Assembly: GCA_938082375.1 (NCBI GenBank)
Contig: CALKCJ010000011.1
Location: 1 to 64,000, forward strand
Length of the DNA: 64,000 bases
Direction of reading: 5' to 3'
Source: an uncultured Thermomicrobiaceae bacterium
GTDB lineage: Bacteria; Chloroflexota; Chloroflexia; Thermomicrobiales; Thermomicrobiaceae
The notes beneath the pieces were generated by a model. It was given only the letters and a program-made list of their open reading frames with translations. It did no database searches and was not told the origin of the DNA. Below, in pieces: positions 25,607-60,504 of this stretch. The stretch's first letter is position 1; each line of letters opens with the position of its first letter. The position numbers and the translations under genes are program-made.

Positions 25607-25707
25607 TCCCCTCTCCCACAGCACGGCGAAGGGAGGGGAACACCGAGCCGATGTTCGGCATGTCCTCCCCTCTCCCGCAGCGCGGAAGAGGGGGCAGGGG
25701 GTGAGGG
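25607..25707. repeat. Palindromic repeat copies upstream of the complex I operon
   Basis: Two imperfect copies (CCCCTCTCCCACAGC...GGGAGGGG and CCCCTCTCCCGCAGCGCGGAAGAGGGG with GGGGGTGAGGG) sit in the 388-base gap between the penicillin-binding protein gene and nuoA. Apart from this and the GAGGTG site before nuoA, the gap holds no recognised gene. Confidence 0.75.
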
Positions 25708-25805
25708 CATCAGAACGCGAGCTATTCTCGGCCAGGCAGTCCACCGCTCGAGATTGTGCTATGCTACACAAGCGGGTAAGGGCTTGCCTGGGATGAGGTG
25801 ACCAG

Positions 25806-26165
25806 GTGTCGCTCGCCAGCTATGCCGTTATCGGCCTACTCCTGATCACGGCCGTGATCATGGGCTCGGCGTTGCTGTTCATTGGCCACTTTGTGCGGCC
25901 GCGTCGGCCCACACCGGCCAAGCTGCAGCCGTATGAAAGCGGCGTGCCGGACGTTAACCCGCCACGGGCGCGCTTCACACCGCGCTTCTACCTGGTCGCC
26001 CTGCTGTTCGTGATCTTCGATGTCGAGGCGATCTTCCTCTACCCCTGGGCGGTCGCGTTTGACGCGCTGGCGCTCTATGGTTACGTCCAGGCAGCGCTCT
26101 TCGTCGGGCTGCTCCTGGTCGGGCTCCTCTACGAATGGAAGAAAGGAGCCCTCGAATGGGTCTAA
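25806..26165 (+). CDS. nuoA: NADH-quinone oxidoreductase subunit A
   Basis: 119 aa, GTG start with GAGGTG upstream. Three membrane helices and the family block [19 protein letters not shown] followed by [20 protein letters not shown] (including the FDVE motif) identify NuoA, a membrane subunit at the junction between the quinone site and the proton channel of complex I. It is the first gene of a ten-gene cluster; its 3' end overlaps nuoB by ten bases. Confidence 0.95.
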
Positions 26166-26716
26166 CCGCCGAGGAGCAGCTCCAGCGGAACATCTTCGTG
26201 ACCAGCGTCGACTGGGTCTTCAACTGGGCCCGTCGCTCCAGCCTCTGGTGGCTGCAATTTGGCCTGGCCTGCTGTGCCATCGAGATGATCAGCGCCGCGA
26301 TGCCCCGCTTCGATCTCGCCGAGCGCTTCGGCATGCTCTACCGTGCTTCCCCGCGCCAGGCAGATCTGATGATCGTTGCCGGTACGGTGACCAAGAAGAT
26401 GGCGCCGGTGGTGCGGCAACTCTACGACCAGATGGCCGACCCCAAGTGGGTCATCAGTATGGGAAGCTGTGCCAACGTCGGCGGGCCGTTCGATACCTAT
26501 GCCGTGGTGCAGGGCGTCGACCAGGTGATCCCGGTCGATATCTACGTGCCTGGCTGCCCGCCGCTGCCGGAGGCGCTTTACTACGGCGTGCTTGAGCTGC
26601 AGAACCGAGTCATCCGCTACGACTCGCTCAAGAAGAAGCACGGCAAGGAGGCCGCTGAGGCCGACCGCCAGGCCCAGCGCGAGGCCGCGCGGGCGGCGCT
26701 CGGCCCACGGCGGTAG
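26156..26716 (+). CDS. nuoB: NADH-quinone oxidoreductase subunit B
   Basis: 186 aa from the ATG at 26156, inside the end of nuoA, with AGGAG eight bases upstream. The N2 4Fe-4S cluster ligands are present as the adjacent Cys pair in [11 protein letters not shown], the Cys of MGSCANVGG and the Cys of [19 protein letters not shown]-like ([19 protein letters not shown]) is another family block. NuoB carries the last iron-sulfur cluster that passes electrons to quinone. Confidence 0.95.
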
Positions 26717-26735
26717 AGGCGAGGGTGCGAGGGCC

Positions 26736-27353
26736 ATGAGCGACGAGCAGCAGGCACCAGTTCCGGCTCTCCGCCCACGCGAGCCGTGGCAGACCGGCTA
26801 CTGGGGGCCAACGAATCCCGACGAGCACCCGGCCGTCATCGCCGTGCGCCAGCGCTTTGCGGAGGCGTTCGAGGAGGCGGTCACCTTCCGCGACGAGATG
26901 ACGATCCGGGTCAAGCGCGAGGCACTGCGCGAGGTGGTCGCGTTCCTGCGCGACCATCCGGAGCTGCGCTACAACCACCTCACCGATCTCACCGCAGTCG
27001 ACATGCTCAACCTGCGCGACGAGCCGCGCTTCGACGTCGTGGTCCAGCTCTATTCCATCCCCCGCCGGCAGCGGCTGCGCGTCAAGTGCGGCGTGAACGA
27101 CGGCGAGACCGTGCCCTCGCTGGTGCCGCTGTTCGCTGGGGCCAACTGGCTAGAGCGCGAATGCTACGACATGTTCGGCATCGTCTTCGAGGGGCATCCA
27201 GATCTCAGACGCATCCTGTTGCCCGATGACTGGGACGAGGGGCACCCGCTGCGTAAAGAGTACCCGCTCCGTGGCTACCGCGACTACGTGCAGCCCGGTT
27301 TCGAGCGGCCAGCACCGCGGGTGCGTGGCTCCCTCCCGAGGCCAAGGCCATGA
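26736..27353 (+). CDS. nuoC: NADH-quinone oxidoreductase subunit C
   Basis: 205 aa from the ATG at 26736; the longer open frame upstream overlaps nuoB and is not used. The 30-kDa subunit signature is intact: [18 protein letters not shown] followed by [20 protein letters not shown]. An N-terminal 40-residue Pro/Arg extension precedes the fold. The stop overlaps the nuoD start as ATGA, so C and D are coupled but not fused. Confidence 0.94.
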
Positions 27354-28579
27354 TCGACTTCACGCAACCGACACCGGTTCTCCTGAGCGAAGAGCGGCAG
27401 ATCACCGAGACCCGCCGTGAGCTCGTCCTCAACATGGGGCCGCAGCACCCCAGCACGCACGGCGTGTTGCGAGTTCGCTTGACACTCGAGGGCGAGATGG
27501 TCGTCGCCTGCGACCCGGTGATCGGCTATCTCCACCGCGGCGTGGAGAAGCTGGGCGAGTCGCACCGCTACGCTCAGATCGTCCCCTGGACAGACCGGAC
27601 GGACTACGTTGCCGCGCCTTCGAACAACCTGGGCTACGTGCTCGCGGTCGAGAAGCTCTGCGGCATCGAAGCGCCGGAACGGGCACAGTACTGGCGCATG
27701 ATCATGGCCGAGCTGGCCCGGATCGCCTCGCATCTGGTCTGGCTCGGCACCCACGCGCTCGATATCGGCGCGCTCTCGGTCTCGCTGTATACGTTCCGGG
27801 ATCGTGAGCTGATCCTCGACATCTTCGAGAAGTTCTGTGGCGCCCGGCTGACGACCAACATGATGGAGATCGGCGGGTTTTCCCGCCAGATTCCGCCCGC
27901 GCTACCGGAGATGGTGCGCGACTTCTGCCGTTACTTGCCGAAAGCGATCCGTGAGTACGAAGACCTGCTCACGGAGAACCCAATCTGGCTGGCCCGCACC
28001 AAGGGCGTGGGTATCGTCGAGCCGGAGATCGCGATCAGCTACAGCCTCACTGGTGCCTGCCTGCGCGGCTCCGGCGTGAACTACGACGTGCGCAAGGCGA
28101 TGCCGTATCTCCTCTACGACCGGATCGACTTCGCGGTGCCGCTCGGCACCCACGGCGACGTCTACGACCGCTACCTGGTGCGCGTCGAGGAGATGCGACA
28201 ATCCATCCGCATCATCGAGCAGTGCCTGGACCAGGTGCCGGCCGACGGGCCGCTGATGGCCTACGAGTCGAACTACGTCATCCCGCCGCACGAGCGGGTG
28301 ATGACGACGGCCGAGGACATGCAGCGGCACTTCATCTGGGTGATCAAGGGCTTCTCGCCACCGAAGGGTGAGGTCTACCACGCTGTGGAGCATTCCAAGG
28401 GGGAACTCGGCTACTACATCGTCAGCGATGGGTCACCGATCCCCTACCGGATGCGGATCCGATCCCCTGATTTCGTGAACCTGCAATCGCTGCCCTACAT
28501 GGCGCAGGGCGCGATGCTAGCGGACGTGGTCGCCCTGATTGGGACGATCGATATCGTGCTCGGCTCGGTTGACCGGTAG
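27350..28579 (+). CDS. nuoD: NADH-quinone oxidoreductase subunit D
   Basis: 409 aa. The 49-kDa subunit is recognised by [20 protein letters not shown], the HRGVEKLGE block, [32 protein letters not shown] and the C-terminal region [20 protein letters not shown] with [19 protein letters not shown]. It forms the quinone pocket with NuoB. The 106 bases that follow up to nuoH hold no gene; nuoE, nuoF and nuoG are absent. Confidence 0.95.
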
Positions 28580-50790: not shown

Positions 50791-50954
50791 GTTCGTCTCA
50801 CCCTTCGCGGCGACACGCTACTGCTGGAAGCGTAGCACACGCGTTCGAACAGGGTTCCATCCGGCCCGGTTCGCCATCCGGCGGCTGAGGATGCGATACT
50901 CACGGCAGCAGGCGAGCGAGCCGTGCGCTTCGTCATGACGCGAGGAGGTCTATC

Positions 50955-51659
50955 ATGCCAATCCTGTCGAACGCCGACCGCGAGTACCTGAGCCAGGTCT
51001 TCGCCGAGCGGCTGGTCGACCCGGTCAAGATACGCCTGTACACGCAGAAACTGGCCCAGCTCAGCATCCCGGGCTACGAGTGCATGACCTGCCGGGAGAC
51101 GAACGAGCTGATGGAGGAGGTCGCCTCGCTCTCGGACAAGATCGAGCTGGAGATGCTCGACTTTCTTCAGGTCAGGGAGCAGGCTGCCCGGGAGGGGATC
51201 ACCGAGATCCCAGCCATTGTCCTCGAGGGCAAGAACAAGGGCAAGGTGCGCTTCATCGGCGTGCCGGCCGGCTATGAGTTCGCGACGTTGATCGAGGACA
51301 TGATCGATGTGTCTCGCGGCACGACGAAGCTCCAACCCCTGAGCCGGGAGATCCTCGGCAAGCTCGCTCGCCCGGTGCATATCCAGGTGTTCGTGACACC
51401 GACCTGACCACACTGCCCGCGTGCCGCCAGGCTGGCGCACATGATGGCAGTCGAGAGCGACAAGGTGACGGCGGACGTGGTCGAGGTCAGCGAGTTCCCA
51501 CACATCGCCCAGCGCTACCGCATCTACGCGGTTCCGAAAGTCGTGATCGACGAAACGCTGGAGTTCGAAGGCGCTCGCCCGGAGGAGGCGTTTATCGCCG
51601 CGGTCGAATCGGTCGCTGGCGGCCCGGTCGAAGAAGGCGGATCGCCTCAGGGAGAGTGA
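50955..51659 (+). CDS. Two-domain glutaredoxin-like disulfide oxidoreductase, probable selenoprotein (UxxC)
   Basis: 234 aa if the in-frame TGA at 51405-51407 is read as selenocysteine. ATG start behind AGGAGG. Domain 1 (1-115) is thioredoxin-fold with a CxxC in GYECMTCRE and the cis-Pro region ITEIPAIVL. Domain 2 (130-234) reads HIQVFVTPT-U-PHCPRAARLA, then VPKVVIDETLEFEGARPEE (cis-Pro). The TGA falls exactly on the first active-site Cys, the same frame continues with fully conserved-looking coding, and a hairpin follows it. Related Chloroflexi PDO-like proteins have VFVTPTCPYCP at this site. The protein would catalyse thiol-disulfide or peroxide chemistry. A simple nonsense mutation is the alternative: it would leave a 150-aa one-domain protein, and the piece from 51441 untranslated or separate. 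Confidence 0.8.
51405..51440 (+). promoter_or_regulatory. Candidate bacterial SECIS element
   Basis: After the UGA (51405-51407) and a 13-base spacer, GTGC-C-GCCA (51421-51429) pairs with TGGCGCAC (51433-51440), leaving one bulged C and the loop GGC. The loop begins 22 bases after the UGA and has G in its first two positions. Both fit the known rules for bacterial selenocysteine insertion hairpins. Confidence 0.6.
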
Positions 51660-59114: not shown

Positions 59115-59129
59115 GACCAGTGCAAGACC

Positions 59130-59252
59130 TTCGGGGCAGGGTGAGGCGCGGCAGCGCCAATTCCCGACCGGCGGTAGAGCCCGCGAGCGGCTGCGGCCGC
59201 AGGATCCGGTGAAACTCCGGGGCCGACGGTATAGTCCGGATGGGAGAAGGTG
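59130..59252 (+). ncRNA. FMN riboswitch (RFN element)
   Basis: Conserved RFN segments occur in order: TTCGGGGCAGGGTG, CCCGACCGGCGGTAGAGCC followed by CGCGAGC, ATCCGGTGAAACTCCGG, GCCGACGGTATAGTCCGGAT and GGGAGAAGG. The element binds FMN and here precedes an intrinsic-terminator-like hairpin, so FMN would shut off transcription of the rib operon. Confidence 0.95.
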
Positions 59253-59298
59253 GTTGCACCTGGTCGCTGGCCAGGCACAGCCTAACCTTGATCGATGT

Positions 59299-59330
59299 AA
59301 CCCGAGGGCTTTGCCTTCGGGTTATTTGTC
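59299..59330 (+). terminator. Riboswitch-controlled attenuator
   Basis: AACCCGAGGG and CCTTCGGGTT (with one G-T pair) form a 10-bp stem with loop CTTTG at 59299-59323, followed by ATTTGT. It lies between the riboswitch and ribD, in the correct place for an FMN-dependent terminator. Confidence 0.8.
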
Positions 59331-59346
59331 CTCGGTGGAGCGCGGC

Positions 59347-60504
59347 ATGGGAGCGTCAGGCGTCTGGACGGAGGAAGATCGCCGGTGGATGCGCCGGGCG
59401 CTGGCGCTGGCCTGGCGTGCCCAGGGGCGGGTGGCGCCCAACCCTGCGGTTGGAGCGGTGGTGGTGCGAGATGGCGAGCTCGTCGGAGAAGGCGCGACCA
59501 GGCCACCTGGCGGGCCGCACGCTGAGATCGTCGCACTCCAGCAGGCCGGTGAGCGCGCGCGTGACGCGACGCTCTACGTCACGCTCGAGCCGTGTGCCCA
59601 TTACGGCCGGACACCTCCCTGTGCCGATGCGATGATTGCCGCTGGCATCCGACGTGCGGTGGTTGCGCTCCTCGATCCGTTTCCGGAGGTCTGTGGCCGG
59701 GGTATCGCGCAGCTCCGCGCCGCAGGTGTCGAGGTCGAGGTAGGCCTGGAGGCTCGGGAGGCGGCCCTGGTCAACGCTGGCTACCTCAAGCGGCTGCGCA
59801 CCGGCCTGCCGGAAGTCACGGCCAAGTACGCGATGACGCTCGACGGGCGCATCGCCACGCGTACCGGGCACTCACGCTGGATCACTGGCGAGCTGGCGCG
59901 CCGCGAGGCGCACCGGTTGCGCGATCGACACGACGCGGTCATGGTCGGGGTCGGTACGGTGCTGGCCGATGATCCCCTGCTGACGGTGCGCCTGGCGGCG
60001 GAAGAGGCCGGCGAGGGTGGCCCGCATCACCCGTTGCGGGTGGTGGTAGACAGCCGAGCGCGCACGCCAGCGACGGCTGCCATGCTCCGCCGGGACACGC
60101 CGGGGCGTACCGTGATCGCCTGCACCGCCGACGCGCCGGCCGAGCGCGTGCGCGGGCTGGAGGCAGCCGGTGCGGAGGTCATGATCCTGCCGCGCGGTGA
60201 GGGTGGTGTCGATCTGGTGGCGCTGCTGCGCGCGCTCGCCGAGCGCGGAGTCAACCGCCTCCTGGTCGAAGGCGGCGGCCGGCTGCTGGGCCGGCTCTTC
60301 GACCTCGGGCTGGTCGATCAAGTCGTCGCCTTCATCGCGCCGGTGGTCGTCGGCGGCTGCGAGGCGCCGGGCCCGGTCGGCGGCCGCGGCGTGGCGGCGA
60401 TGGAGCAGGCCTGGAGGCTGCAGAGCGTCGAGCTGTGCCGGCTGGGGCCGGACGTGATGCTCACCGGCCGGCTGACCTTCCCGCCGATCTCGGAGGTGTC
60501 GTGA
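59347..60504 (+). CDS. ribD: Bifunctional deaminase/reductase RibD
   Basis: 385 aa from the ATG at 59347, with GGTGGAG upstream; the longer frame would run through the attenuator. The N-terminal deaminase has the zinc motif GGPHAEIVAL and LEPCAHYGRTPPCADAM. The C-terminal reductase has TAKYAMTLDGRIATRTGHSR, VGVGTVLADDPLLTVR and NRLLVEGGGRLLG. It converts the GTP-derived pyrimidine to the ribityl intermediate in two steps. The stop overlaps the ribE start (TGATG). Confidence 0.94.
   Translation: MGASGVWTEEDRRWMRRALALAWRAQGRVAPNPAVGAVVVRDGELVGEGATRPPGGPHAEIVALQQAGERARDATLYVTLEPCAHYGRTPPCADAMIAAGIRRAVVALLDPFPEVCGRGIAQLRAAGVEVEVGLEAREAALVNAGYLKRLRTGLPEVTAKYAMTLDGRIATRTGHSRWITGELARREAHRLRDRHDAVMVGVGTVLADDPLLTVRLAAEEAGEGGPHHPLRVVVDSRARTPATAAMLRRDTPGRTVIACTADAPAERVRGLEAAGAEVMILPRGEGGVDLVALLRALAERGVNRLLVEGGGRLLGRLFDLGLVDQVVAFIAPVVVGGCEAPGPVGGRGVAAMEQAWRLQSVELCRLGPDVMLTGRLTFPPISEVS

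Follow-up and report, generated by a model that had tools for sequence, protein, structure and literature searches.

The gene at positions 50955–51659 on the forward strand of the window (the whole 64,000-nt stretch of Thermomicrobiaceae DNA analysed here) almost certainly encodes a selenocysteine (Sec)-containing protein disulfide oxidoreductase (PDO), in which an internal UGA would be decoded through SelB and a SECIS element and Sec would act as the attacking residue. Four lines of sequence evidence carry this reading: the gene itself, a conserved TGA codon, the presence of the Sec genes in the same genome and a hairpin behind the codon.

Gene structure and predicted fold

The reading frame starts at an ATG at 50955, with a Shine-Dalgarno–like AGGAGG 6 nt upstream (50943–50948, forward strand), and reaches an in-frame TGA at codon 151 (51405–51407; context VFVTPT-TGA-PHCPRAARLA), after which 83 sense codons lead to a terminal TGA (51657–51659) that is read as stop. 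With Sec at residue 151 the product comprises 234 residues. The first-pass annotation had placed this TGA at the first Cys of a second CxxC motif, and the DNA and its translation are as described there; its expectation that ordinary gene callers would truncate the gene also held, since standard ORF calling ended it at 51407 with 150 aa. Because the terminal stop is TGA as well, the decoding of TGA in this gene must be context-dependent.

A search with the NCBIfam model TIGR02187 gave a match that spans the TGA (residues 6–219, model positions 2–208 of 209), with a score of 254.5 bits compared with a curated cut-off of 185 bits. In the PDB, the PDOs 1j08 and 1a8l were matched (E ~2e-42), and their active-site Cys falls opposite residue 151 in the alignment. 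In an alignment of 30 sequences, both Cys of the first redox motif, CMTC (residues 43–46; 51081–51092), were invariant, as were P86, V193 and P194; the latter two belong to a Val-Pro-Lys at 51531–51539 in which residue 194 is the cis-Pro expected for the second thioredoxin domain. The second redox motif, UPHC (residues 151–154; 51405–51416), is indicated by the translation, the relatives and the same alignment.

An AlphaFold2 model, for which the window and locus sequences served as input, consisted of two thioredoxin folds (mean pLDDT 91.3), and a CxxC-type motif and a conserved Pro are present in both. Residue 151 is located in the turn between the strand at 141–147 and the helix at 154–167, which is the position of the attacking Cys in such domains. 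The nearest solved structures to the predicted protein were PDOs from Pyrococcus and Aquifex, and the model aligned with P. furiosus PDO 1a8l at a TM-score of 0.86. Judged by family match and modelled fold, the product is a two-domain PDO of TIGR02187 with predicted thiol-disulfide exchange activity, and the initial proposal of a PDO-like protein combining CMTC and UPHC was thus borne out.

The in-frame TGA among relatives and the Sec gene set

Among the best 80 relatives from named genomes, 8 carried TGA exactly at codon 151, and the remainder of those read carried Cys. In an even draw of 150 genomes from the same class as the window (class sample), 43 contained a strong TIGR02187 match, and in 14 of these 43, the window's own genome included, one TGA fell inside the match; when all 14 genes were read, it was located at codon 151 in 14/14. 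Three of these 14 genomes repeat the first set, so that without repeats 18 TGA genes besides that of the window were obtained. Neither TAA nor TAG was found at codon 151 among the relatives read, every non-TGA form having Cys, and other stops occurred only at query positions 222–227, i.e. at the protein ends. The homologue alignment that the first-pass annotation had proposed as a check therefore yields a site that is either TGA or Cys. The TGA forms, all with intact frames, came from the family of the window's genome, from Chloroflexota outside it and from one Nitrospirota genome. One genome (G020; L107 / L140) contained two PDO genes, one with and one without TGA, and a distant PDO (L135, in G019) had VTNC aligned to the first CxxC while the TGA was kept in the second motif.

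Downstream of the TGA, substitutions were mostly at third positions and dN/dS was <0.25 wherever it could be computed; these values were lower than those upstream in all comparisons but that of the closest pair, where differences are few. The pattern of substitutions indicates that the codons 3′ of the TGA are under purifying selection. The decay past this codon in close relatives that had been named at the outset as a sign against read-through was not seen in those relatives, which keep the TGA.

The genome to which the window belongs (G000; a draft of 61 contigs, 99.97% complete) was searched one family at a time, and all four Sec genes, for which the first-pass annotation had suggested looking, were present: tRNA-Sec (selC; 73.5 bits, anticodon TCA), SelA (532 bits), SelB (347 bits) and SelD (368 bits). 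The selB gene (C11:67513-69369) is located on the same contig as the PDO gene, 3.5 kb beyond the end of the window. The SelD gene itself contains an in-frame TGA (CAG-U-AGK; C39:18-950, L020, at the very end of its contig), which is the UxxK type given for SelD in the literature (PMC13188914). In-frame TGA was also found in two formate dehydrogenase alpha-subunit genes (G000:C19 about 112157-114946, L143; G000:C7 about 25630-28494, L144), in the context NQARI-TGA-HSSTVPGL, a common form of Sec site in formate dehydrogenases; a UHxP pattern was found in neither gene, the frames reading UHSSTVPGL instead. Judged by these genes, at least four selenoproteins appear to be made in G000, namely the PDO, SelD and two formate dehydrogenases.

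SelB was present in 14/14 TGA-bearing genomes of the class sample and in 8/8 of the first relative set, and also in 23/29 Cys-form genomes of the class sample, with 6/29 lacking it. The co-occurrence in the class sample (Fisher p about 0.08, calculated by hand) fits the Sec reading but on its own is weak evidence. A distance of ~7–19 kb separates the PDO gene from selB on one contig in most genomes of the window's family; in one Cys-form genome (G032) they are on different contigs.

Three other explanations of the TGA were weighed against Sec insertion. Ordinary translation would terminate at this codon, leaving either a pseudogene or a protein of only 150 residues; however, 18 relatives hold TGA at the same codon across phyla with intact frames, and the purifying selection that persists past the TGA (third-position bias, dN/dS < 0.25) excludes a pseudogene. 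A restart of translation would not rescue the domain, as the next in-frame ATG lies past the UxxC and its use would remove the motif together with the first strand of the domain, and we regard a true stop as highly improbable. An error of the TGC-to-TGA type could be suspected in a draft assembly of 61 contigs, but the same TGA occurs in independent genomes at 95%, 88% and 67% identity, including the named strain Thermalbibacter longus CFH 74404, and sequencing or assembly error is therefore excluded for all practical purposes. Trp-tRNA can in principle read through UGA, and either a genome-wide reassignment of TGA or near-cognate read-through could place another amino acid at residue 151. Nevertheless, 7/9 window genes checked, the PDO gene included, end in TGA, the site is Cys and never Trp in all other homologues read, and the genome has a complete Sec gene set, which together leave this explanation with hardly any probability. 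Sec insertion at codon 151 is the reading supported by the TGA/Cys pattern in relatives, by the Sec genes and by the hairpin described below, in agreement with the read-through originally proposed for this gene.

A SECIS-like hairpin and the Sec/Cys history

A SECIS-like hairpin is located behind the TGA at 51421–51440 on the forward strand, with an apical stem formed by 51425–51428 and 51434–51437 (CGCC/GGCG) and a loop, AGGCU, at 51429–51433; an extension of the stem to 51421–51440 is possible. The rules for bacterial elements (bSECIS) ask for a stem of ≥4 bp, an apical loop of 3–9 nt with G in its first two positions, and a loop 16–37 nt from the UGA (PMC13188914). The window hairpin agrees with these rules, having the stem CGCC/GGCG, G as the second letter of AGGCU and a loop that starts 21 nt past the UGA.

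Comparison of 17 distinct Sec-form sequences revealed that 95.6% of the apical stem cells were paired, versus 21–63% when the partner was slid, and that the 4-pair apical stem covaries. A compensatory change from C-G to G-C was found at the outer pair (21/33) in 5 sequences, although this single pair may represent few events inherited by several sequences. The longer stem of 8 pairs was also tested for covariation, and none was detected. The inner three pairs together with the loop G were present in 17/18 Sec forms versus 25/90 Cys forms (Fisher p = 1e-7, ignoring relatedness); the hairpin counts are inflated by relatedness among the sequences, and a large part of the stem doubles as coding sequence for the conserved AARLA. 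The loop codon is AGG in 13/18 Sec forms, and AGG accounts for 9/242 Arg codons in the window genes. Random synonymous recoding produced the full 8-pair arrangement of the window in ~1/1000 tries, for an arrangement that was picked after being seen.

Folding stability relative to shuffled sequence was not unusual for GC-rich sequence (z = -0.90), and therefore the case for the hairpin is built on its position, the loop G, the conservation of pairs and the synonymous recoding. Bare hairpin energies differed weakly between Sec and Cys forms (p = 0.005, ignoring relatedness), and many Cys forms fold well. No Rfam match to the hairpin was found; bacterial SECIS elements are varied.

The history of the Sec/Cys state was read on a quick tree, on which it requires five changes, three of them forced by starred branches. 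One Cys form (G032; L105 / L139; G032:C37:59876-60514) branches within the Sec clade of this family of the window's genome, its exact placement among the family branches being beyond the resolution of the quick tree. This genome has kept SelB, and the protein sequence near the site is almost the same; its codons read GCT CGT CTC GCG, versus GCC AGG YTG GCG in the Sec forms of the family, so that the stem is broken. These sequences are most simply explained by a Sec-to-Cys change accompanied by loss of the SECIS-like element, which makes G032 a natural control in which Sec has apparently been replaced by Cys and the hairpin lost while SelB was retained. As sampled here, the distribution of the codon shows selenium PDOs to be the rule in the window's family. 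Sec and Cys forms are ~75% identical and thus offer a cheap comparison of what selenium gives a disulfide enzyme.

Proposed redox role and relation to known PDOs

From the gene and its context we infer Sec insertion, reaction direction, electron donor and substrates as follows. SelB would deliver Sec-tRNA to the UGA at 51405–51407, aided by the SECIS hairpin with its loop 21 nt past the codon, and the ribosome would continue as far as the UGA at 51657, where translation ends. Two thioredoxin domains would then form. In the second, the Sec of UPHC would serve as the nucleophile that attacks disulfides of target proteins, and Cys154 would resolve the mixed selenenyl-sulfide. The CMTC motif of the first domain probably hands electrons to UPHC or acts on substrates of its own.

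A selenoprotein that works mainly as a cytosolic disulfide oxidase or isomerase rather than as a reductase would also be compatible with Sec insertion. Such a role would suit the proposal that PDOs help to form disulfides in thermophiles, as well as the search of G000, in which no thioredoxin reductase exceeded the family cut-off; Sec, however, usually favours reductive exchange. In addition, thioredoxin reductase supplies electrons to the PDOs of Sulfolobus and Pyrococcus, and Sulfolobus PDO passes them on to peroxiredoxin (PMC7278568). An oxidase or isomerase role is an unlikely alternative to the reductase.

For the reductase, the source of electrons was sought in the same genome. The best match to the thioredoxin reductase family in G000 scored 156 bits, against a cut-off of 343, and was the only match at E <= 1e-20. 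It corresponds to a thioredoxin-reductase-like flavoprotein (G000:C6:46035-46961, L146), the first residues of which we take to resemble a ferredoxin-NADP reductase-type flavoprotein. A search of G000 for a classical NADPH-thioredoxin reductase above the family cut-off found none, and by sequence comparison this enzyme, the usual source of electrons for PDOs, seems to be missing from the genome. G000 has one PDO. These two observations, one PDO and no thioredoxin reductase above the cut-off, form the basis for supposing that the Sec PDO could be the main cytosolic disulfide reductase of the lineage and receive its electrons from something other than NADPH-thioredoxin reductase, with Sec enabling the exchange; we consider this improbable.

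The Sec-type PDO family is already known, and the gene at 50955–51659 is a well-supported additional member. In a 2026 review, TIGR02187 with UxxC figures as a high-confidence selenoprotein prediction, under the name Homolog of AhpF N-terminal domain (Grx-like domain protein) and with ABB15282.1 as the example (PMC13188914 Table 1); the review traces the first report to a 2004 paper. A 2006 survey recorded the family in Carboxydothermus hydrogenoformans and Symbiobacterium thermophilum (PMC1794560), and the NCBIfam name of TIGR02187 is PDO_seleno_TRX. The listed family and the window PDO have in common the family model, the UxxC and a bacterial Sec system; at the level of the family description no difference in kind from ABB15282.1 was apparent, and the window's member comes from a Thermomicrobiaceae-type genome.

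The PDOs of Pyrococcus furiosus and P. horikoshii (1a8l, 1j08) likewise have two thioredoxin domains and two CxxC motifs, with 37% identity to the window PDO in structure alignment and TM-scores of 0.84–0.86, but they are archaeal and have Cys in the second motif where the window PDO has Sec. Aquifex aeolicus PDO (2ayt, 2ywm), from a bacterial thermophile, shares fold and family and is about 33% identical, but is listed as an ordinary glutaredoxin-like PDO. The AhpF N-terminal domain (1zyn, 5h29) is also a tandem thioredoxin-fold unit, but it forms part of a larger flavoprotein and was a weaker match (TM-score 0.75–0.78). The general knowledge of selenoproteins is unchanged by the window PDO; what is gained is a corrected annotation for a gene that plain callers otherwise cut at 150 residues.

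Elsewhere in the window, an FMN riboswitch (RF00050, 94 bits) at 59123–59255 overlaps the start given by ORF listing for a ribD-like gene (59209–60504), and the true start of this gene is probably further downstream than listed.
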